From: Calditrichota bacterium
GTDB lineage: Bacteria; CLD3
Direction: 5' to 3'
DNA: 41,514 nucleotides
NCBI GenBank assembly: GCA_008501735.1
Contig: QQUF01000012.1
Coordinates: 1 to 41,514, forward strand
Both the position numbers and the translations under genes were made by a program. Of this stretch, positions 9,508 to 20,458 are shown piece after piece; position 1 is the stretch's first letter; each line of letters begins with the position of its first letter. The notes under the pieces are model-generated. The model saw only the letters and a list, made by a program, of their open reading frames with translations, was not told the origin of the DNA and searched no databases.

Positions 9508-10800
9508 CTAAAAAATAATCTTAAATTCTGTTAGTCCATTTGACAATGTTTTTAGTGAAAAGTTGAATTTGTGATTTGAAAGAATCTCCCGTGAAATTGT
9601 GAGACCAATTCCTTGTCCATTTTTTTTAGAGCTGAAAAATGGTGTGAAAATTGAATTTTCGATTTCAGAGGGAATTCCTTTTCCATTGTCTTGAATTGTC
9701 AAAGTATTCCGAGTTGTCTTTAGCAAAATCGTCCCGTTTGCAGAAATAGATTCAACAGAGTTTTTGATTGCATTAACCAAAACTTGCTCAATTTGCAATT
9801 TGTCAGCAAAAATGAAAATTTCACTTTGCTCAAATTCTATTTTTAACTCAATGTTTTTTTGCAAGCAGAAAACTTTCATTGTTTGTTGAATGTCAGAGAC
9901 GAACTCATTGAGATTAATTTTTTCTTTGTTTGGAATTGGGATTTTGACAACTTCCGCAAAGTTTTTCATAAAAGAGTTTAAGTGAGAATTTCTTTCAATT
10001 GAAACTTCTAAAGCATTGTTAAAGTCTTCGCGGTTTTCTTCTGAAATTTCAGATTTAAATTCCAAAATTGACTCTAAAATCGAATTTACTGCTCCTATCG
10101 AATTGTTAATTTCGTGGGACATCATTCGGATTACTTTTTCAAAAGATTTCTTTTCTGTTGCGTGAATTTCTTTTGAAAATTCTTCAATTAAAATAAAAGT
10201 TCTCGGAAATCCTCTGTCAAGAAATTGCGATTTTTGTACTTTGAAAGAGCGAGAACCGTCTAATTTTAAGATTTTGGACTCATCTTGGTTTAGTTGAGAA
10301 ATCATTTTGAGAAAGTGAATTTCGCACTCACTTAACTTTCTTTTAAGCAGATTCTCTTTTGTAGATTTTAGGATTGTTAGGGCAGAGTGGTTGATTTCAA
10401 AAATTTTTTCGTCCAAATCCAAAATTATTATTCCGGAAGGTGAAGCTTCAATAAGTTTTGCCAAAAATAAATTCTGTTCTTCTTGTTTGGTTCGTTCAAT
10501 CCGAAGTTGCTCAATCATTTTATTGTAAACTTCAATCAAATTATCCAATTCGGAGTGCCCAACTTTTAGAAATTTTGAACTAAAATCCTTATCCTTAATT
10601 GACTCAATTCCTGAAGAAATTATGCCTAAAGGTCGAATGAAATCTTGATAAATTTTTAGCGAAAGCCCAAAAGAAATCACAATCAAAATTTCAACTGTGA
10701 AAAATAAAACACTGTATTTTTCCAAAAGATTTAGAGAAAGGAAAAACAATGCAAAGTGGAGTAGAGTAACAAAAAGTAGGAATTTGGTTTTAATCTTCAT
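9508..10800 (-). CDS. Membrane sensor histidine kinase (NtrB-like partner of the adjacent regulator)
   Basis: This 430-residue kinase has two N-terminal membrane segments (about 7-26 and 30-50) with almost no periplasmic loop, a HAMP-like linker, a PAS domain (about 110-210), HisKA with the phosphorylated histidine at 229 (RMMSHEINNSIG) and a HATPase domain (N-box NAIKNSVESI, G1 DNGKGIP, G2 GQGIGLTI). The near absence of an external domain suggests sensing of the membrane or cytoplasm. It overlaps the response regulator by 11 bases, the usual coupling for a kinase/regulator pair. It is the last gene of the six-gene unit that starts at 16540, so it should phosphorylate the regulator at 10790-12157. 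Confidence 0.93.
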   Translation of the reverse strand: MKIKTKFLLFVTLLHFALFFLSLNLLEKYSVLFFTVEILIVISFGLSLKIYQDFIRPLGIISSGIESIKDKDFSSKFLKVGHSELDNLIEVYNKMIEQLRIERTKQEEQNLFLAKLIEASPSGIIILDLDEKIFEINHSALTILKSTKENLLKRKLSECEIHFLKMISQLNQDESKILKLDGSRSFKVQKSQFLDRGFPRTFILIEEFSKEIHATEKKSFEKVIRMMSHEINNSIGAVNSILESILEFKSEISEENREDFNNALEVSIERNSHLNSFMKNFAEVVKIPIPNKEKINLNEFVSDIQQTMKVFCLQKNIELKIEFEQSEIFIFADKLQIEQVLVNAIKNSVESISANGTILLKTTRNTLTIQDNGKGIPSEIENSIFTPFFSSKKNGQGIGLTISREILSNHKFNFSLKTLSNGLTEFKIIF

Positions 10801-12157
10801 TAACAGCCAAACCGAATTTTTCGAGTCGTCTGTAAAAAGCAGCTCTACTCAAGCCGAGTGATTTTGCGGCTTTGCTAACATTGTTTTTATGAAATGTAAG
10901 TGCCTTTTGAACCATCTCCTTTTCTATCTCTTCCAAAGTCATTGCTCCAATTTCAGGCAATGATTTTGTAGATTTTTTTTCAATTGAGCTTTGCATCGCC
11001 TCAAAATTTTCAACTTCTAAAATTGAATTTGTCGAAACTAAGAAAACTCGTTCAATTAAATTTTTCAGCTCACGAATATTTCCGAACCAACTTTGAGACT
11101 TTAACCAATTCAATGCTTTTGTTGAAATCTGAATTTCTCTTTTGTAAGATTCATTTAAATTGTTCAAAAACGATTTTGCCAAAAGAGGAATGTCGTTTGG
11201 TCTTTCTCTCAAAGACGGAATTTTCAAAGTGATTAAATTAATTCGGTAAAAAAGGTCTTCGCGAAAATTATTTTGGTTCACAAGTTCTTCTAAATTTTGG
11301 TTCGTTGCACTGACAATTCGGAAATCCGAAGTTTTAGTTTTACTTGAACCAAGAATTTCAAAAGTTCTGTCTTGAAGAACTCTCAAAAGTTTTACTTGGT
11401 TTGAGATGTCAAGTTCACCGATTTCATCTAAAAAAATTGTTCCTTCATCTGCAAGTTCAAATCTTCCAATTCTATCGGTCTTTGCATCTGTGAAAGAGCC
11501 TTTTTTGTGTCCGAACATTTCGCTTTCAAACAGAGTCGAAGAAATCCCGCCAAGATTTACTTTCACGAAATTTTTGTTTTTTCTTTGACTGTTTTGGTGA
11601 ATTGCTTCTGCAAGAAGTTCTTTACCAGTTCCGCTTTCACCGAGAATTAAAACTGATGCGTTTGTTTCAGCAATTTTTCCAGCAGTCGTCAGAATCGAAA
11701 GTAATTTTGGGTCTTCGCCAATAATTTTTTTGAAATTGTAGGCTTTATCCAAGTCTTTTCTTGAAAAATGATTTGTGTCATTTTTTGAAAGGCTTAAAGC
11801 AGTTTTAACAGTTTGTACTAAATGCGAATTGTTCCAAGGTTTGCTCAAAAAGTCATTTGCACCGAATTTCATTCCTTGAACGGCAAGTGAAATCGAACCC
11901 CAAGCAGTTATCAAAATTACTGACAAATTTGGTTTTTGAGATTTGATTTCTTTGAGGAAATCCAAGCCTTCTTTTCCTGAAGTTTCCATCGAAAAGTTCA
12001 TATCCAAAATCACTAATCCAATTTTTTCAGATTTTAGAATTTTTTGAGCCTCAAAAGGAGATTCTGCCAAAAAAGTTGTAAAACCTGCCTTTTTTAACAA
12101 TAATTTAAGCGAAGTTCTTACAGCAAAATCATCGTCAACTATTAAAATTGTAGCCAT
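10790..12157 (-). CDS. Sigma-54-dependent response regulator (NtrC family)
   Basis: The 455 residues comprise an N-terminal receiver with D8/D9/D10 and phosphoacceptor D52, a central AAA+ domain, and a Fis-type HTH (about 410-452, SKAAKSLGLSRAAFYRRLEK). In the AAA+ domain, Walker A is GESGTGKE (173-180), Walker B is IFLDEIG (241-247) and REDLFYRIN (299-307) follows. The sigma-54 contact loop reads GSFTDA (220-225) instead of GAFTGA. The protein is expected to use ATP to open complexes at sigma-54 promoters. It is encoded 5 bases after the permease gene and overlaps its kinase. The operon has a good -24/-12 element, so it probably activates its own transcription. Confidence 0.94.
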   Translation of the reverse strand: MATILIVDDDFAVRTSLKLLLKKAGFTTFLAESPFEAQKILKSEKIGLVILDMNFSMETSGKEGLDFLKEIKSQKPNLSVILITAWGSISLAVQGMKFGANDFLSKPWNNSHLVQTVKTALSLSKNDTNHFSRKDLDKAYNFKKIIGEDPKLLSILTTAGKIAETNASVLILGESGTGKELLAEAIHQNSQRKNKNFVKVNLGGISSTLFESEMFGHKKGSFTDAKTDRIGRFELADEGTIFLDEIGELDISNQVKLLRVLQDRTFEILGSSKTKTSDFRIVSATNQNLEELVNQNNFREDLFYRINLITLKIPSLRERPNDIPLLAKSFLNNLNESYKREIQISTKALNWLKSQSWFGNIRELKNLIERVFLVSTNSILEVENFEAMQSSIEKKSTKSLPEIGAMTLEEIEKEMVQKALTFHKNNVSKAAKSLGLSRAAFYRRLEKFGLAVNED

Positions 12158-12162
12158 ATTTT

Positions 12163-13359
12163 TTACTCGTTGTGCAAAGCGATTGCAGGTTGAATTTTTG
12201 AAGCTAATTTACTTGGGTAAATTGCACAAATTATTGAAATTATCAAAATTATTCCGATTGAAACACAAATTGAATAAATGTAAATTATATTTTCTACCGA
12301 ATCAAAAACATCTAAAAGTGGAAATTGAATCGCAAAAAATAAACCAATCGTAATTCCGAACCCTGTTAGAATCGCCGTTTCCGAGACTATCTGAATGTAA
12401 ATGTCTTCTTTTGTAGCACCGAGTGAGCGTCTTAAACCGATTTCAGGAATTCTTTTGCTGATGTTGTACCAAAGGACTCCAAAAAGTCCCAACGAAACAT
12501 TTATTAAAAGAAAACCGCAAATTATACTCATTGCAATGAGAGGTATTAGAATTAATTCTCTTGTCCTTATTCTAAGTTTGTCTAAAGAGTCCAAGTCCAA
12601 AATCCAATCTTGACCAATAGGAGAAAGTTTTTTCATCATTTGACTTTGAAAGGCTATGTCGATTTCATCTTTCATTTTTATCAAAATTCTGTCACCAGGT
12701 CTTTCTTCAATTTCTGTTAAAGGATTAAGTCTGATTATTAAATTATCAGAACTTGAGAACTCACTTCCAATTCTAAATTCATCAATTACTCCTCTAACAA
12801 TATATTCTTTTTCACTTTTAGTTGTGAATTTTTCACCAATTGCAATTCCGCCCCCAAAAACTTCTTCCTTAAATGCTTTGTTAATCACAATTGGAATTCG
12901 ATTTTTAGAAAAATCTGCGTTGCTTAGCCATTCACCTTGTATGATTTTAAAATTCATAACATTTTTGTAACTTTGGTCAGCATAAATTACTGAAGTTCTT
13001 ACTTTTTTGTCATTGTAAGTTAGTCTTGTATTGTAACTACCAAACTCAAAAGGAACATTCCTACAAACGGTGATTGATTCAATCTCGCTATAATTTTTCA
13101 ACTCATTTTTGATTAGTTCAATTCTGTCAACAATGTCTTTGTAACTTTCGGATTCTTTCCATTCAAAATCTGTGGTTGACATACTCAATACCCAAACATT
13201 TTCGTAATCGAAACCAAGCGGTTTGAAATAATTTGCTCCGTTGTAAAAAATAACGCTAAGTACTGCAAACAAAACAAGAAATGAAATACAAAATTCAAAA
13301 ATCAAAAGTCCGTTAGTTTTTTTTCTGTTCCAAATTAGTTTTAAAAGATGCTTAAACAT
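12163..13359 (-). CDS. ABC transporter permease, FtsX/MacB family (second)
   Basis: This is a 398-residue permease with an N-terminal membrane helix (about 17-38), a large periplasmic MacB-PCD-like domain, and three C-terminal membrane helices forming an FtsX domain. The motif RIPEIGLRRSLGATKEDI marks the cytoplasmic coupling region. Such type VII ABC proteins act by mechanotransmission: they extrude peptides, lipoproteins or toxic compounds from the periplasm, or signal. Its start overlaps the stop of the first permease by one base, implying coupled translation and probably a heterodimer. The substrate is unknown. Confidence 0.9.
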   Translation of the reverse strand: MFKHLLKLIWNRKKTNGLLIFEFCISFLVLFAVLSVIFYNGANYFKPLGFDYENVWVLSMSTTDFEWKESESYKDIVDRIELIKNELKNYSEIESITVCRNVPFEFGSYNTRLTYNDKKVRTSVIYADQSYKNVMNFKIIQGEWLSNADFSKNRIPIVINKAFKEEVFGGGIAIGEKFTTKSEKEYIVRGVIDEFRIGSEFSSSDNLIIRLNPLTEIEERPGDRILIKMKDEIDIAFQSQMMKKLSPIGQDWILDLDSLDKLRIRTRELILIPLIAMSIICGFLLINVSLGLFGVLWYNISKRIPEIGLRRSLGATKEDIYIQIVSETAILTGFGITIGLFFAIQFPLLDVFDSVENIIYIYSICVSIGIILIISIICAIYPSKLASKIQPAIALHNE

Positions 13360-14591
13360 TAGTTTCCTCCTTTCAAAGCGTCAACAGGATTTAATTTTGA
13401 CATTTTGTAAGCAGGGTAAATTCCGCTAAAAAGCCCAAAAAAAATCGTTACTGCCAAGCCAAACAAAAACACTCTGAAATTTATTTCAAATTGTGAGTAA
13501 AGGACAAAACCCATTGCATTTACTCTTTCCAAAATTATTGCTGCAAAAATTAAACCTAAAACTCCTCCCAAAAGTGTGAGAATTAAATTTTCAACTAAAA
13601 ACTGATTTATCAAATTCCAAGAAGTTGCTCCACAAGCTTTTCTAACTCCAATCTCTGAACTCCTTTCCAAGATTCGACTAATGTTAATGTTCACAAGGTT
13701 TACAGTTGGCATTAGAAGAAAAAGTGTAATCAAAGTGATAAGCAAAAAGAAAACAGGAGTAATGCTAATTTCTTCATCTGTATCTACAAAAGTTCGGTAA
13801 ACTGCTTCAAAATAACTTTCTGGGTTTGCGTAAATTGTATCAAATTTGTCAGTTGGAAATTCTATATTTTTAATTTTGTTTTGGAATTCACTTCGGATTA
13901 TTGGAAAATCACTTTTATCTTTTGCCAAAATCGTCCCGAGGAATAAACCGTCAAAAGTGAAAGCATTTAAATCACCATCAAAAGTTGAAATAGGGACCCA
14001 AACGTCTGCGTAAGCAACAAATTTCAAAAAGGATACATTTTCAACAACACCTAATACTCTATAATTTTTACCATTAATTTCGATAAATTTCCCGACAGCA
14101 CTTTCGCCATTAAAGTACTTTTTCTGAATTTCTTTGTTAATAACAGCAACATAATTTTTGTTCTTAACATCATCTTGAATAAAAGATTTTCCTTCAATAA
14201 ATTTGAAATTCATAATCTCCCAAAACTCACTGTCTGCAAATTTTAAGTCCAAACTGATTCTTTTATCTTTTGTATAAACAACATTCTGAGTATGCGAAGA
14301 AACAATTGAAGTTTTCTCTGGAGTTGTAAGGCTTTTCATATATTTGTCTAAGAAGTAGTAGCTAATCGGACCATTCCTTGAATTGTCTTTACCTTTTTGA
14401 ACAACGTTAATAATTGATAACGTTCTGTCCAAATCTGTTTCAGGATAATGAGAACCGAAAATTTGGTCAAAAAATGAATTTGCAACAATCAAAATTGTTA
14501 ATGAAAAGCTAATTCCAAACAAACTAATGAAAGTAAAAAATTTTCGCCTCAGTAGAACTTTGTATGCAATTTTTAGATAATTTTTAAACAT
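13359..14591 (-). CDS. ABC transporter permease, FtsX/MacB family (first)
   Basis: This 410-residue protein has the same architecture as its downstream neighbour: an N-terminal helix (about 17-38), a periplasmic MacB-PCD-like domain with GKSFIQDDV and GKFIEINGKNYRVLGVVEN segments, and a C-terminal FtsX domain with ILERSSEIGVRKACGATSWN. The two permeases are clearly paralogous but well diverged, so a heterodimer with the ATPase at 14609-15277 is likely. It lies 17 bases after the ATPase gene. The ATPase is separate rather than fused, unlike E. coli MacB. Confidence 0.9.
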   Translation of the reverse strand: MFKNYLKIAYKVLLRRKFFTFISLFGISFSLTILIVANSFFDQIFGSHYPETDLDRTLSIINVVQKGKDNSRNGPISYYFLDKYMKSLTTPEKTSIVSSHTQNVVYTKDKRISLDLKFADSEFWEIMNFKFIEGKSFIQDDVKNKNYVAVINKEIQKKYFNGESAVGKFIEINGKNYRVLGVVENVSFLKFVAYADVWVPISTFDGDLNAFTFDGLFLGTILAKDKSDFPIIRSEFQNKIKNIEFPTDKFDTIYANPESYFEAVYRTFVDTDEEISITPVFFLLITLITLFLLMPTVNLVNINISRILERSSEIGVRKACGATSWNLINQFLVENLILTLLGGVLGLIFAAIILERVNAMGFVLYSQFEINFRVFLFGLAVTIFFGLFSGIYPAYKMSKLNPVDALKGGN

Positions 14592-14608: not shown

Positions 14609-15277
14609 TTAATCATTAATTTTGCTTCCGTCGAAGAAGCGAATTGTTCTTTCGGTTTGTTTTGCGATGTTTTCGTCGTGAGTAACCATTACAATCGTTG
14701 TTTTTTCATTTTGATTTAAATCGTGCAGAATTTTCATAATTTCATTTCCCATTGCACTGTCAAGGTTTCCTGTTGGTTCGTCTGCAAGAATTAAATTTGG
14801 TTTGCCAACAATCGCTCTTGCAATTGCAACTCTCTGTTTTTGCCCACCAGAAAGTTGTGACGGAAAATGTTTCGTTCTTGCACTTAACCCAACATTTTCT
14901 AATGCCGCTAATGCCATTTCTTTTCTTTTCGAAGCTGAAAGCTCTCGGTAAAGCAAAGGAATTTCAACATTGTCAAGAACACTTAAATCATTTATTAGGT
15001 GAAAACTTTGAAAAACAAATCCGATTTTTTCATTTCTAATTTTCGCGATTTCTCTTTCTGATTTCTCACTGACTTCTTCTCCATCAAGTTCGATTTGACC
15101 TTCAGAAGGTTTGTCTAATAATCCAATTACATTTAGCAAAGTGCTTTTTCCTGAACCAGAAGGTCCCATTACAGATAAAAATTCTCCATTTCTTACTGAA
15201 AGATTAATTTTGTTTAAAGCTAAAGTTTCGATTGTGTCAGTTCTATAAACTTTACTAACATCTGTTAAATCAATCAT
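14609..15277 (-). CDS. ABC transporter ATPase, MacB/LolD type
   Basis: A 222-residue nucleotide-binding subunit. Walker A is GPSGSGKST (38-46), the Q-loop glutamine is at 90, the signature is LSGGQ (142-146), Walker B is LILADE (162-167) followed by PTGNLD, and the H-loop is in MVTHDEN. The PTGNLD and [11 protein letters not shown] sequences are typical of the MacB/LolD/FtsE branch. It should power the two FtsX-type permeases encoded immediately downstream. The gene sits 15 bases after the adaptor gene. Confidence 0.95.
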
Positions 15278-15292
15278 TTAATTGTTCCTTCT

Positions 15293-16540
15293 TTATTCAA
15301 TTATTTCGATTTTATTCTTATTTATAAATTCTTTGGTGTCTGAAATTATCACTTTATCTCCAACTTTAGCACCGACCAATATTTCTACAAAATCAAAGTT
15401 TGTTGCACCAATTTTGGCTTGAGTTTTAAGAGCTTGTTTTCCTTTTATTACAAAAATCTCTTGTAATCCTGAACCATTTACAAATGCTCCGTTTTTAACT
15501 CTAAGAATGTTTCGTTTCGAATTTGTAACTACAAAAACGTCTACCCTTAAATTCGGTCTTAACAATTCATTTGATTTGTCTTTGATTTTTGCAGAAAAAG
15601 AAATAATTCCATTTTCAATTGTTGGCTGAACGTTAGTAATTTCAGCTTTTAAATATTTATTGTTAATTTTGATTTTTAATTTAGTTCCGAGAAGAAGTTT
15701 TTCGGAATGCATTTCAGAAATTCTTGCTTCGAGTTTGAAACTTGAAAGGTCAGAAACTTTCGCAATCACTTCACCTTTTTTTACATTCGAACCAATTTCA
15801 TCTTTAATCCAAGTAACGATTCCACTTCGAGAAGATTTTGTTGTGGCTAATTCAATCAGCCTTTTTTGTTCCTGAATGTCTTTGGATTGAATTTGGATTT
15901 GGATTTCAATTTCTTTTAAATCTGCTTCTAAAGTCTTGCGTTGGTTTTCAATTTTCCTTTCTAAAGAAACTTTTTCCAATTTTGCAATTTCCAAATTCAA
16001 CTTTGCTCTTTTCAAATCTTCTTTGGTTGAAGCACCAATTTCTGACAAACGTTCTTGAGTTTTAAGTTCAGATTCTAAAGATTGGATTTTTAATTTTTTA
16101 ATTTCCAAATCGGATTCAAGAGAAATCAAAGTTCTTTCAAGGCTAAGTTTAAGTTGAGTTTTGTTATTTTTAAGAATTTCAAATTCATCTTCAAACTTTC
16201 TTAAAGTATTAAAAATTACTTCTTTATTTAAAGCAAGGATAGGTTGACTTTGTAGTGTTTTGTCACCAATAGAAATAAAAATGCTATCGATTTTTGAGTC
16301 AATAGGACTGATTATCACCTGTTCAAATTCGGGCACAATTAAACCTGTTGCAGTAACAGTTGCTTCTATATCTCCAAGTTCTACTGTGTCGATTAAAATT
16401 TCAGAACTATTTAAAGTAGGCGTTAAAAACCATCTAAAAATTAGGTAGAATACAACTAAGAGTAGAATTCCAAATGCGAATTTCATTCTCTTTTTGTTTT
16501 TATTCTTATTTTGAATTTCTTGAGCTACGGCTTTGTCCAT
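15293..16540 (-). CDS. Periplasmic adaptor, HlyD/MacA family
   Basis: A 415-residue membrane fusion protein. A cytoplasmic basic N-terminus is followed by one membrane helix (about 20-38). A biotinyl-lipoyl-like half (GLIVPEFEQVIISPIDSKIDS) precedes a long coiled coil (about 120-240), the second lipoyl half (TTKSSRSGIVTWI), and beta-barrel and membrane-proximal domains. It is expected to bridge the ABC permeases to an outer-membrane factor. No TolC-like gene lies in the operon, so an outer-membrane partner would be encoded elsewhere. It is the first gene after the sigma-54 promoter, with a predicted leader of only about 20 bases and a weak ribosome site (GAAAG). Confidence 0.92.
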   Translation of the reverse strand: MDKAVAQEIQNKNKNKKRMKFAFGILLLVVFYLIFRWFLTPTLNSSEILIDTVELGDIEATVTATGLIVPEFEQVIISPIDSKIDSIFISIGDKTLQSQPILALNKEVIFNTLRKFEDEFEILKNNKTQLKLSLERTLISLESDLEIKKLKIQSLESELKTQERLSEIGASTKEDLKRAKLNLEIAKLEKVSLERKIENQRKTLEADLKEIEIQIQIQSKDIQEQKRLIELATTKSSRSGIVTWIKDEIGSNVKKGEVIAKVSDLSSFKLEARISEMHSEKLLLGTKLKIKINNKYLKAEITNVQPTIENGIISFSAKIKDKSNELLRPNLRVDVFVVTNSKRNILRVKNGAFVNGSGLQEIFVIKGKQALKTQAKIGATNFDFVEILVGAKVGDKVIISDTKEFINKNKIEIIE

Positions 16541-16570
16541 TTTGCTTTCAAATTTAGTTTCATCGATTTG

Positions 16571-16586
16571 TGCAAAGTGAATGCCA
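16571..16586 (-). promoter_or_regulatory. Sigma-54 (-24/-12) promoter of the ABC export operon
   Basis: Read on the minus strand this is TGGCAT-TCACT-TTGCA. It has GG at -24 and GC at -12 exactly ten bases apart, matching TGGCAY-N5-TTGCW. Counting from the -12 C puts the transcript start near 16560, 20 bases before the adaptor ATG. The operon encodes an NtrC-type activator, which strengthens the call. Confidence 0.85.
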
Positions 16587-16641
16587 AGTAGGTAAGTTAG
16601 GTAAAATTAATTGTTTAAAGCCTTTTGAGAATATTGAAAAG

Positions 16642-16668
16642 TGTTCGGAAGTGAACAGTTTGTTCGGA
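16642..16668. promoter_or_regulatory. Candidate upstream activator site (TGTTC-N6-GAACA dyad plus third half-site)
   Basis: A perfect dyad, TGTTC (16642-16646), six bases, GAACA (16653-16657), is centred about 90 bases upstream of the predicted sigma-54 transcript start, in the range usual for NtrC-family enhancer sites. A third half-site, TGTTCGGA, repeats at 16661-16668. Assignment to the operon's own regulator is inference. Confidence 0.55.
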
Positions 16669-16682
16669 TTTAAATCTTGGGC

Positions 16683-16718
16683 AAAAAAAAGCCCCTTCAG
16701 AATCATTCTGAAGGGGCT
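16683..16718 (-). terminator. Rho-independent terminator of the metalloprotease gene
   Basis: There are fourteen-base arms, 16690-16703 and 16705-16718 (AGCCCCTTCAGAAT and its complement). On the minus strand the stem is followed by eight T residues (16690-16683). It insulates the sigma-54 promoter downstream from read-through. Confidence 0.9.
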
Positions 16719-16764: not shown

Positions 16765-19700
16765 TTATTTTAAAAGAAGCATTTTGCGAGTTTGGTTTTG
16801 AGTTGCTGATTCAAGTTTGTAGAAGTAAACTCCACTTGAAACTTGTTTCCCAAAATTATCAGTTCCATTCCAAACAACAGTTCCTTTTGATTCTGTCAAA
16901 TTAAACTCTTTAACCTTTTCACCCAAAACATTAAAAATTACCAACTTTGCTAATTCCGAATTTGCAATTTGCAATTCGTAATTTATCGAAGTTGAAGGGT
17001 TAAAAGGGTTTGGGTAGTTTTGTGAAAGCCTGAAAGATTTTGCAATGTTTTCGCTTTCTTCTTGAGAAGTGAAGATTACAGAATTTGTGTCAGAATTTAC
17101 AGAATTTGGAGCCATAGCTAAGTCTAAAGCAGAGAAGTAGTAGTGAACTTCGTCTCCAGGAGTTAAAGAAATAGCAGGATTAGATTCAACTTCATTTGCA
17201 GCAAGCACATTAACTGAAAACACTTGGAAAGGATTGTTATTAATACTCATGTTTAAGTAAGTGTTATCATAATCAACACCAACATTATCAGTTACTTTTG
17301 CTGTAAACTTTATTGAAAATGGAGTGTCAACAATTTCAACATTTATATCAGAAATTACTGGAGGAGTTGTGTCAATGTCAACTAAGAAAGAATGAGGTTG
17401 AGCTGGGAAAATTACAGAATTGCCAACAGTATCATTAGCAGAAATGTAATAATAAACAGTTGTTCCGTGAGGTTGGAAAGGAATTGAAGCTGTAAAGGTT
17501 CCAAACCCTGGATCTATCATTGAAACATTTGTATAGTTTACATTGTCAAAACTGTATGATAGAAATGGATTTCCAGTAAGTAAAGGATTTGAAGCTGTAA
17601 TCATTGCTAAAATAGGGTAGTCAGTAGAATCGTTTTCAGTGTCTTTTAAAGCAACGTGTTCAATGTTTAAAATTGAACCAATTCCATAAACTAAAATGTC
17701 ATCAACAGCAGCTTCAACTAATGAACCTTGTCCTAAATCTTGAGCGATAAATCTTAATTGGCATTGAGCTGTCGGAGTAACAAAGTCTGAAATCAAAAAT
17801 CTGAAGTTTTCCCAAGCATTATTAGAAACGTTTGTATTTTCTAAGACTGTCCAAGTAGAACCGCCATTATTTGAAATTTGAATGTTGAAAAAATCATTTC
17901 CAGGGCTTGCACCTTGGTCATTTGAGTACCAACGATAATAATCAACAATTGGATTAATTACAGTTGTTGCATCAAAAATTGGAGATACTAAAGTTGTAAT
18001 TCCACCGTCAACGTCATTTGCTCCAGCTGCTTGTCCAGGATTAGCATTTCCTGTTACAAAACAAGCAACACCAACATCTGTGTGGTCATCTTCTGGTTGA
18101 GCATCAGTTCCGACTGGGTCGTCTCGAATCCATTCACCACTTGTCGCATCATCTGTTGGCAAACCTAAAGTCCAACCATTTTGTGATTCTGCGTGGTCTT
18201 CAAAAACATAAGTTAAATTTCCAACTAAGAATAAAAGTCCTCCGTTTGAAATGTCTGTTGGGTAAGTAACAGTTCCTGTTAGAGTTTGCACAGTAATGTA
18301 ATATCTAACCAAACTTCCAACTTGTTGTGCAGGAATATCAGCTTCAGCGATGTCGTTTGTTGTAAAAGTCATTGGAATTGTTTGTGGTTGTCCACCATTA
18401 ACAGTGTAAGTTAAAGTTGGGTTTGAATTCGGATTCAATAAAATCCCTAAACTCATTTGTGCTTCAACTGTGTAAGAAGTTGCAGAAGCTGGAGCATTTT
18501 CAACTGGGTCGTGAGCAATTGTTGTTGGTAAGCCAATTCCGTGATTAGTAGTGAATGCCGTTAAAATGTTTAAAGCGTTTGGAGTGCTGTTAGAAAGGTC
18601 ATTGTCTCCACCAGCCATTAAAAGTGGATTATCATCAGCAATAATCAAATCAACTAAATAATCTTCAAAATTGTCTGAAAATCCATATTTTGCCCATTGA
18701 AACAATGTATCAGTTTTAGCTTGACCGATTAACCCTCTCAAATCCCACAAAGCTCCAGCAATAATTTCACCATCGTCGTGAACTTCACCTGTTAAATCTT
18801 GTGGATACATTTTGGTGTTTTGAGAAGTTCTTAAAAAGCCAGTTGGATTGTTACTAAAAAATCCAACTCCAACTAAAGGACTTCCGCCAATCGTGTTAGC
18901 ATAGTAATCTGAAAGTCCTTCGTGCATAGCACCAGAAGGTGAAAGATTCCCGTATTGTTTGGCTGTTATTCCGTGAGCATATTCGTGGTAAACTACGTCA
19001 GCAATTCTTGCTGTATTGTTGCAATTATTTCCAGCTTGGAAAAAATTGATAGTATTTCCATCCCAAAAGGCATTACAGTTATCATTAATGTTAATGTTAC
19101 AATCCATCTGATAATCAACACCATTAAAATTTGGGTCAATATTTTCGATGTAATCGTGTGCCAAATTTGTATGGTAAAAAGCATCTCGTTCTTCTAAAGA
19201 ACTGTTAGAATTGTCCCAAAGTAAATCAAATGGAATGTCAGGTTGAATTTGAGCTGAAAAAGTTGAATTTGCTCCATTTTGGTTCAAAACTTCTGTCCAA
19301 GGACCTTTGAAAGATGAAGACAAATTGAGAGGATTTGAGCCTAAGTTTGTAATTGCAAAATTTCCAAGAGTGTCAGTTGTTAATGGCTGTGGAAGTGAAC
19401 CAATTGAAATATGTTGATTAAACATTGGTAAGTCAGTCGTAATATTATTTGGAACTGTTTCGACTGGACCGTGAGAATTTCCTGAAAATGTTTGGTGTCT
19501 CATTTCGTTGTGTCGCCAAACAATGTTTCCATTCTCAGTATCCACAAAAGTTGCCCAAGTTCCAAGAGGTGAATCAGTTCTTAATTTTGTTTCGTGAACA
19601 AATTTAAAATCAGTGTTTCCTTTTTGGTCAACTAAAGGAAGAACCCAAGTTTTTTCTTCTGACCAGTCTTTGTCGTCTGATGAAAATCCGATTGAACTTT

Positions 19701-20271
19701 TTGCGATTTCAACTGCTTGTGAGTGTGAGATTGACAATTGATTTGAAGGGTTAATTTCAGGAAAGGAATCAGAGCCAAAGAGTATGACTTTAGCATTTGG
19801 AGTCATTCTTACGGTAGTTCTTGAGTCGTAAACTTTTACTCCGTTTACAGTTTGGAAAAAATCAACGTAAAAAATGCCTGTTTTTTCTAACAAATTTTCT
19901 AAAACGATTTCACTTTCATTCACTTTTAAGAGTGAAGAATTTTCTCTTAAAAATGCTCTTGCAGCACTTTCAGCATTTTCTAAATTGATTCTTGAAAATC
20001 CTTGAATTGCCATTGGTTTCCCGAAAACACGATGAGGATTTCCTCTGAATTCGTTCCAACTTGAAGTAAGGTTTCCGTTTATAGCTTTAAAATCCTGCCA
20101 TTCTTTTTTGTTTTGAAAAGCATTTTGGATTTTTTGAGTTTTGAGTTTTAGATAAGTTTCTTGTGGAATTCTTACTTCGTTAGGTTTAGGATTTGGTTTG
20201 TAGTCAAATCCATAAACACTTCCTGCAAGACTTAACAAGATTGTGAGTAGAGTAGTTTGGTTTTTAAACAT
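16765..20271 (-). CDS. Secreted zinc metalloprotease, M36 (fungalysin-like), T9SS cargo
   Basis: This 1168-residue protein starts at ATG 20271, which has GGAGGAAAG just upstream. An in-frame ATG at 20313 would add 14 non-signal residues. A signal peptide is followed by an FTP-type propeptide (ARTTVRMTPNAKVILF region). The catalytic domain has H429-E-Y-A-H433 and the third zinc ligand E451 in MHEGLSDYY. The C-terminal half holds several beta-sandwich regions. The last about 85 residues are a type A T9SS sorting signal (NYPNPFNPST ... SSGVYFYKLE ... KMLLLK). It is predicted to be exported, activated by prodomain removal and attached to or released from the cell surface. It is monocistronic, with its own terminator. 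Confidence 0.93.
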   Translation of the reverse strand: MFKNQTTLLTILLSLAGSVYGFDYKPNPKPNEVRIPQETYLKLKTQKIQNAFQNKKEWQDFKAINGNLTSSWNEFRGNPHRVFGKPMAIQGFSRINLENAESAARAFLRENSSLLKVNESEIVLENLLEKTGIFYVDFFQTVNGVKVYDSRTTVRMTPNAKVILFGSDSFPEINPSNQLSISHSQAVEIAKSSIGFSSDDKDWSEEKTWVLPLVDQKGNTDFKFVHETKLRTDSPLGTWATFVDTENGNIVWRHNEMRHQTFSGNSHGPVETVPNNITTDLPMFNQHISIGSLPQPLTTDTLGNFAITNLGSNPLNLSSSFKGPWTEVLNQNGANSTFSAQIQPDIPFDLLWDNSNSSLEERDAFYHTNLAHDYIENIDPNFNGVDYQMDCNININDNCNAFWDGNTINFFQAGNNCNNTARIADVVYHEYAHGITAKQYGNLSPSGAMHEGLSDYYANTIGGSPLVGVGFFSNNPTGFLRTSQNTKMYPQDLTGEVHDDGEIIAGALWDLRGLIGQAKTDTLFQWAKYGFSDNFEDYLVDLIIADDNPLLMAGGDNDLSNSTPNALNILTAFTTNHGIGLPTTIAHDPVENAPASATSYTVEAQMSLGILLNPNSNPTLTYTVNGGQPQTIPMTFTTNDIAEADIPAQQVGSLVRYYITVQTLTGTVTYPTDISNGGLLFLVGNLTYVFEDHAESQNGWTLGLPTDDATSGEWIRDDPVGTDAQPEDDHTDVGVACFVTGNANPGQAAGANDVDGGITTLVSPIFDATTVINPIVDYYRWYSNDQGASPGNDFFNIQISNNGGSTWTVLENTNVSNNAWENFRFLISDFVTPTAQCQLRFIAQDLGQGSLVEAAVDDILVYGIGSILNIEHVALKDTENDSTDYPILAMITASNPLLTGNPFLSYSFDNVNYTNVSMIDPGFGTFTASIPFQPHGTTVYYYISANDTVGNSVIFPAQPHSFLVDIDTTPPVISDINVEIVDTPFSIKFTAKVTDNVGVDYDNTYLNMSINNNPFQVFSVNVLAANEVESNPAISLTPGDEVHYYFSALDLAMAPNSVNSDTNSVIFTSQEESENIAKSFRLSQNYPNPFNPSTSINYELQIANSELAKLVIFNVLGEKVKEFNLTESKGTVVWNGTDNFGKQVSSGVYFYKLESATQNQTRKMLLLK

Positions 20272-20458
20272 CTTTCCTCCGAGAAAAGCGGTTAAGGTTA
20301 AAATTTTACTCAATTTAACAGAAAATGCTAATTTTCATTTCAAAAAAAGTGTTTACTTAAAAATTAGAATAAAATAATTATATATTTAAATCTAACTTTA
20401 GACAATTAAAATTTAAAAAGATTTTTAAGCCCAAATTTTTTCAAAAGGTTATTTCGAA

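Follow-up and report, generated by a model that had tools for sequence, protein, structure and literature searches.

The window analysed here, a stretch of 41,514 nucleotides from a Calditrichota bacterium, carries on its minus strand a protease gene, an intergenic region with a sigma-54 -24/-12 element and two dyads, and a six-gene export operon whose last two genes encode a response regulator and a histidine kinase. The features are as follows:

16690..16718, minus strand: intrinsic terminator at the end of the upstream protease gene (13-bp stem and T7 tail)
16661..16676: distal, degenerate putative enhancer dyad TGTTCGGATTTAAATC, 90 bp from the -24 T, at the second spacing peak of the relatives
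16642..16657: proximal putative enhancer dyad TGTTCGGAAGTGAACA, 71 bp from the -24 T, 11/12 matches to TGTYCG-N4-CGRACA
16571..16586, minus strand: sigma-54 -24/-12 promoter element TGGCATTCACTTTGCA, exact consensus, conserved before orthologous adaptor genes
15293..16540, minus strand: gene 1, periplasmic adaptor of the HlyD/MFP family (Pfam HlyD_2, HlyD_3)
14609..15277, minus strand: gene 2, MacB/LolD-like ABC ATPase (Pfam ABC_tran)
13359..14591, minus strand: gene 3, MacB_PCD/FtsX permease (Pfam MacB_PCD, FtsX)
12163..13359, minus strand: gene 4, MacB_PCD/FtsX permease (Pfam MacB_PCD, FtsX)
10790..12157, minus strand: gene 5, NtrC-type response regulator (Pfam Response_reg, Sigma54_activat, HTH_8)
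9508..10800, minus strand: gene 6, histidine kinase with two N-terminal membrane helices (Pfam PAS, HATPase_c)

The -24/-12 element was read directly from the minus-strand letters, with the GG at 16585-16584 separated by N10 from the GC at 16573-16572, and the TGGCAT-N5-TTGCA sequence reported in the preliminary description holds base for base at 16586-16571. The distance of 20 bases to the adaptor start codon given there is true of the predicted +1 near 16560, which lies 20 nt before the ATG (16540-16538); measured from the end of the -12 element, the distance to this codon is 30 nt. The exact sequence TGGCAYN5TTGCW occurs only once in the window, at this promoter, and the exact dyad TGTTCGGAAGTGAACA is likewise present as a single copy; the latter is the perfect TGTTC-N6-GAACA dyad that had been noticed, with its centre about 90 bp upstream of the predicted +1. 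A third half-site had also been described, and it is present (TGTTCGGA, 16661-16668, a direct repeat of the first half-site at an offset of 19 bp), but it does not stand alone: it is the one intact half of the distal dyad, so that the putative enhancer consists of two dyads. The strong terminator between this region and the protease gene was found at 16718-16690 on the minus strand, where it follows the protease gene (16765-20313, minus strand). The protease is an M4/M36-type metallopeptidase that carries a type IX secretion sorting domain at its C-terminus.

The gaps between the six genes are at most 17 nt, with two overlaps, and no strong terminator was found within the unit. The adaptor is 28-45% identical to its orthologues. 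Pfam assignments agree with the identification of genes 5 and 6 as an NtrC-type regulator and its kinase, in that order, and the gene 5 product consists of a receiver domain, an AAA+ domain with the motif GSFTDA and a Fis-type HTH domain (Pfam and motif reading). The exporter had been called MacAB-like. This is correct for the fold families, because the MFP adaptor, the ABC ATPase and the MacB_PCD/FtsX permease family are common to this operon and MacAB-TolC. However, MacB combines the ATPase and the permease in one chain, whereas the window encodes a separate ATPase (14609-15277) and two permeases (13359-14591 and 12163-13359), and contains no outer-membrane factor in the operon.

Conservation of the promoter element and the dyads

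A scan of species-level genomes with the regulator block around its contact motif as the query yielded 80 loci, which were mostly from Bacteroidota, the remainder including KSB1, Fidelibacterota, Acidobacteriota, Latescibacterota, Gemmatimonadota and Gammaproteobacteria. Many of these loci share the gene order adaptor, (outer-membrane factor), ATPase, permease, permease, regulator, kinase. The element TGGCAY-N5-YTG was found upstream of 19 of 34 adaptor genes, compared with 18 of 551 control upstream regions and 2 of 1700 shuffles, and dyads with at least 10 of 12 matches to TGTYCG-N4-CGRACA preceded 21 of the 35 operons found through the activator, compared with 25 of the 551 controls. The strongest control matches belonged to the same exporter system or shared its intergenic region; the initial controls were thus contaminated with genes of this system, and a cleaned set of 311 was used when both elements were considered together. 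At a spacing of 55-95 bp, both were present in 16 of the 35 operons and in none of the 311 cleaned controls.

The 14 of 35 operons without a dyad of 10/12 tend toward regulators with a different recognition helix (for example L112, L141, L143 and L144). In two KSB1 relatives (L190 and L191) the dyads are present and TGGYAY is absent. G002, G006 and G008, in which a related regulator of another subclass is divergent from its exporter, contain the same dyads together with a GGGCAT-N5-TTG element. In Bacteroides and relatives, the genes for the outer-membrane factor, the regulator and the kinase lie together, and the promoter-dyad module is found before the outer-membrane-factor gene; since the module precedes this gene where the regulator sits behind it, the module follows the regulator. 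Tracing each regulator unit automatically back to its first gene proved too crude, as the procedure halted at gaps and over-called starts, and its results were excluded from the counts. In six Bacteroides and Parabacteroides loci (L072, L080, L088, L090, L092 and L096), an outer-membrane factor, a GAFTDA regulator and a kinase occur without adjoining exporter genes, with dyads in front and in most cases also a -24/-12 element.

Conservation of both elements before orthologous adaptor operons had been named beforehand as a check, and a held-out set of operons was examined after the motif had been fixed, by running an adaptor profile on 201 genomes from the Bacteroidota order of Pedobacter. The adaptor system was present in 57 of these. 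Among 29 new upstream regions, the -24/-12 element was found in 28 and the dyad in all 29, and both elements occurred at 55-95 bp in 28 of 29, again compared with 0 of 311 cleaned controls; the 29 genomes belong to one order and are related rather than independent samples, so that the Fisher value for this comparison overstates their independence, and the breadth of the conservation therefore rests on the spread of the first set over phyla. Measured from the start of the dyad to the -24 T, the most frequent distance is 67 bp (71 bp for the proximal dyad of the window), and a second, weaker dyad lies most often at 86-89 bp (90 bp in the window), farther away by about two turns of the helix.

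The exact TGGCAYN5TTGCW sequence occurs six times in the 4.14-Mb genome, each time before a gene on the same strand (in one case inside an over-called start). The exact dyad has eight copies, compared with three for a reversed control, and only one of the eight, that of the window, is close to a canonical -24/-12 element. A genome scan for TGTTC-N6-GAACA, which had been proposed as a way to define the regulon, thus did not do so, and the genome-wide dyad count was rejected as regulon evidence. Because the dyad alone is not enriched, its evidential weight comes from its position and from its conservation in other genomes. Taken by itself, the count of 8 versus 3 sites would be compatible with motifs matching by chance in AT-rich intergenic DNA, but we give this explanation almost no credence, as the co-occurrence and the spacing of the elements are kept over phyla, the pair is absent from the cleaned controls, and the held-out operons contradict it. 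A scan for a half-site plus a -24/-12 element in the same genome gave five sites, among which the complete exact dyad did not recur. The six exact sigma-54 consensus sequences of this genome include one before groES-groEL (L220:4703) and one before an hsp20-type gene (L218:5268), which suggests that chaperones could be under sigma-54 control; a recent survey also mentions a groES of Bacteroides thetaiotaomicron that depends on sigma-54 (PMC12316311).

Contact motif of the activator and the sigma factor

The loop of the gene 5 product that corresponds to the sigma-54 contact motif reads GSFTDA and thus departs from GAFTGA. In the held-out operons, which were found without using this motif, GAFTDA or GSFTDA was present in all 15 readable regulators, indicating that the motif is the rule for this class of activators. 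The -12 dinucleotide varied across 49 promoters of the class (GC in 25, GT in 15, GG in 7 and GA in 2); the window promoter has the full consensus. One could hypothesize that the GAFTDA motif is causally linked to such a relaxed -12 element. Among related held-out promoters (L153-L181), a -24 TGGC is mostly accompanied by a -12 TTGT (9/11) and TGGT mostly by TTGC (15/17), an apparent compensation between the two elements, as if exactly one departure from the consensus were kept. In addition, seven loci (L068, L071, L107, L111, L117, L119 and L141) have TGGCAY followed at N4 by a TTG-like -12 element before the adaptor gene, a spacing that falls one base short of the usual sigma-54 N5.

The G-to-D change in the contact motif and the frequent loss of the -12 GC raise the question of whether the dyad is real but the GSFTDA regulator uses the housekeeping polymerase, like TyrR/HupR-like relatives, with the -24/-12 element being incidental or a relict. 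For VfmH, a Dickeya regulator with GAFTDA, RpoN was not found in a pull-down, and the effect of the G-to-D change was stated as unknown (PMC10714721). However, in a study of D. vulgaris, GAFTDA was counted among the variants expected to keep activity (PMC4641369). Furthermore, the -24 element lies at a fixed distance from the dyad in nearly all held-out operons, and rpoN is present in 29 of 30 other genomes carrying the exporter system, compared with 4 of 14 control genomes. Absence of rpoN from the genome of the window had been named in the preliminary description as a finding that would speak against a sigma-54 promoter; this genome contains one full-length rpoN, in which the three Pfam domains are all present, the activator-interacting domain among them. 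We therefore regard use of the housekeeping polymerase as quite improbable.

Proposed control of the operon and relation to known systems

The evidence strongly favours control of the operon by its own activator, and we are fairly confident that the region before the adaptor gene is an enhancer-dependent sigma-54 promoter at which the operon's own regulator most likely activates the exporter genes. The original proposal, made for one locus, is thus supported and extends to a conserved module. According to this proposal, the gene 6 kinase would phosphorylate the NtrC-type regulator, which would bind the two helically phased dyads at 67-71 and 86-90 bp from the -24 element; the short intervening DNA would bend, the regulator could then contact RNA polymerase-sigma-54 at TGGCAT-N5-TTGCA, and transcription of the six genes, presumably as one unit, would begin near 16560. 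Since the regulator and kinase genes are the last of the unit, activation would also raise their own levels, resulting in positive autoregulation. Such feedback would need a basal source of the regulator; a scan of the unit for internal housekeeping promoters showed no excess over shuffles, and no clear one was found.

Alternatively, the promoter and enhancer could be real but bound by another sigma-54 activator of the same genome, with the regulator of the operon acting elsewhere. The genome encodes 37 full-length sigma-54 activator domains, and VfmH has been reported to bind the vfmE and vfmA promoters and not to regulate vfmFGHIJ, its own exporter operon (PMC7912708). This alternative seems unlikely, because the dyad tracks this regulator class over phyla and gene orders and is also found before units that consist of only an outer-membrane factor, a regulator and a kinase.

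Control by the operon's own regulator raises the question of the stimulus. The membrane helices of the gene 6 kinase lie at residues 3-19 and 26-42 with a short loop between them, an arrangement found in nearly all regulator-linked relatives, and the kinase thus has no periplasmic sensor domain; the stimulus would therefore probably arrive through the membrane or the exporter itself. In the Bce-type modules of Bacillota, an FtsX-family ABC permease is tied genetically to a kinase that has hardly any extracellular domain. The window kinase is similar in its two membrane helices and minimal loop, whereas the regulator is an NtrC-type sigma-54 activator rather than an OmpR-type protein, and a periplasmic adaptor is present. 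As the window kinase shares its unit with an FtsX-family exporter, it could plausibly sense through the transporter. Transporter-based sensing has been proposed for the Dickeya permease VfmG, which was likened to BceB (PMC9306890).

Judging from published descriptions, VfmH is the closest studied regulator that we found. The Vfm system likewise has exporter genes (vfmFG) beside the genes for a regulator (VfmH) and a kinase (VfmI), VfmH has GAFTDA, and VfmI has two membrane helices with a very short loop, as in the window kinase (PMC9306890, PMC10714721). In contrast, the vfm genes are linked to a cluster for signal synthesis, and the window operon has no such cluster. The presumed nearest relative among our set, L144, belongs to another clade and has no dyad. 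In ZraSR-type operons, an NtrC-type regulator controls its own unit via sigma-54, as proposed here (autoregulation by ZraR is stated in PMC12316311); the window unit differs from these in being a tripartite exporter operon and in its GSFTDA motif and enhancer sequence. In the same 2025 PLoS One survey, sigma-54 promoters were predicted before COG0577 MacB/FtsX-type permeases in Gammaproteobacteria, Opitutia and Bacteroidia, a link described there as the first such evidence; only GAFTGA activators were retained, and the sections considered name no enhancer, activator or autoregulation for such operons, unlike the reading given here. Surveys of this kind would miss GAFTDA-type activators. The link of sigma-54 to MacB-type permeases is therefore known, and the enhancer, the activator class and the autoregulatory layout are apparently new, as no description of them was found in the literature searched, coverage of which was partial.

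For an exporter family that is widespread but uncharacterised, and that also occurs in gut Bacteroides, these results predict the activator, the enhancer sequence and the promoter. They are also relevant to the question of whether sigma-54 is used by GAFTDA regulators such as VfmH. The motif and its spacing could also be used for predicting further targets. More tentatively, the operons might represent a class of two-component systems that are coupled to exporters in several phyla and that correspond, with sigma-54, to the Bce modules. In such systems, a sensor-less kinase would read the exporter's state, and an activator of the GAFTDA type, suited to promoters with a relaxed -12 element, would drive the whole unit through sigma-54 in a positive loop.

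Distribution of the system

In the tree, the regulator of the window belongs to a clade of 34 members (support 100/99), and its nearest sequences are from KSB1 and Fidelibacterota (59% identity; support for the grouping with the window 91/68). No orthologous adaptor was found in a genome of the sister genus, where the best match was 23%, which fits either horizontal movement or loss. Among Gammaproteobacteria, the adaptor was present in 1 of 369 genomes, namely the starting genome only; the system is rare in this class, to which it was perhaps transferred. The genome of the window contains a second adaptor-ATPase-permease-permease set on another contig (L047:10900-16731, contig C4), with a 447-aa gene, possibly for an outer-membrane factor, before the adaptor; this set has no GAFTDA regulator in its unit and no upstream -24/-12 match. 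About 20 of the 37 sigma-54 activator domains of this genome fall in open frames of 1185-1795 aa; for instance, a 1663-aa frame (L215:4650-9641, minus strand, contig C32) combines Ser/Thr protein kinase, AAA_16, TPR, GAF and Sigma54_activat domains.
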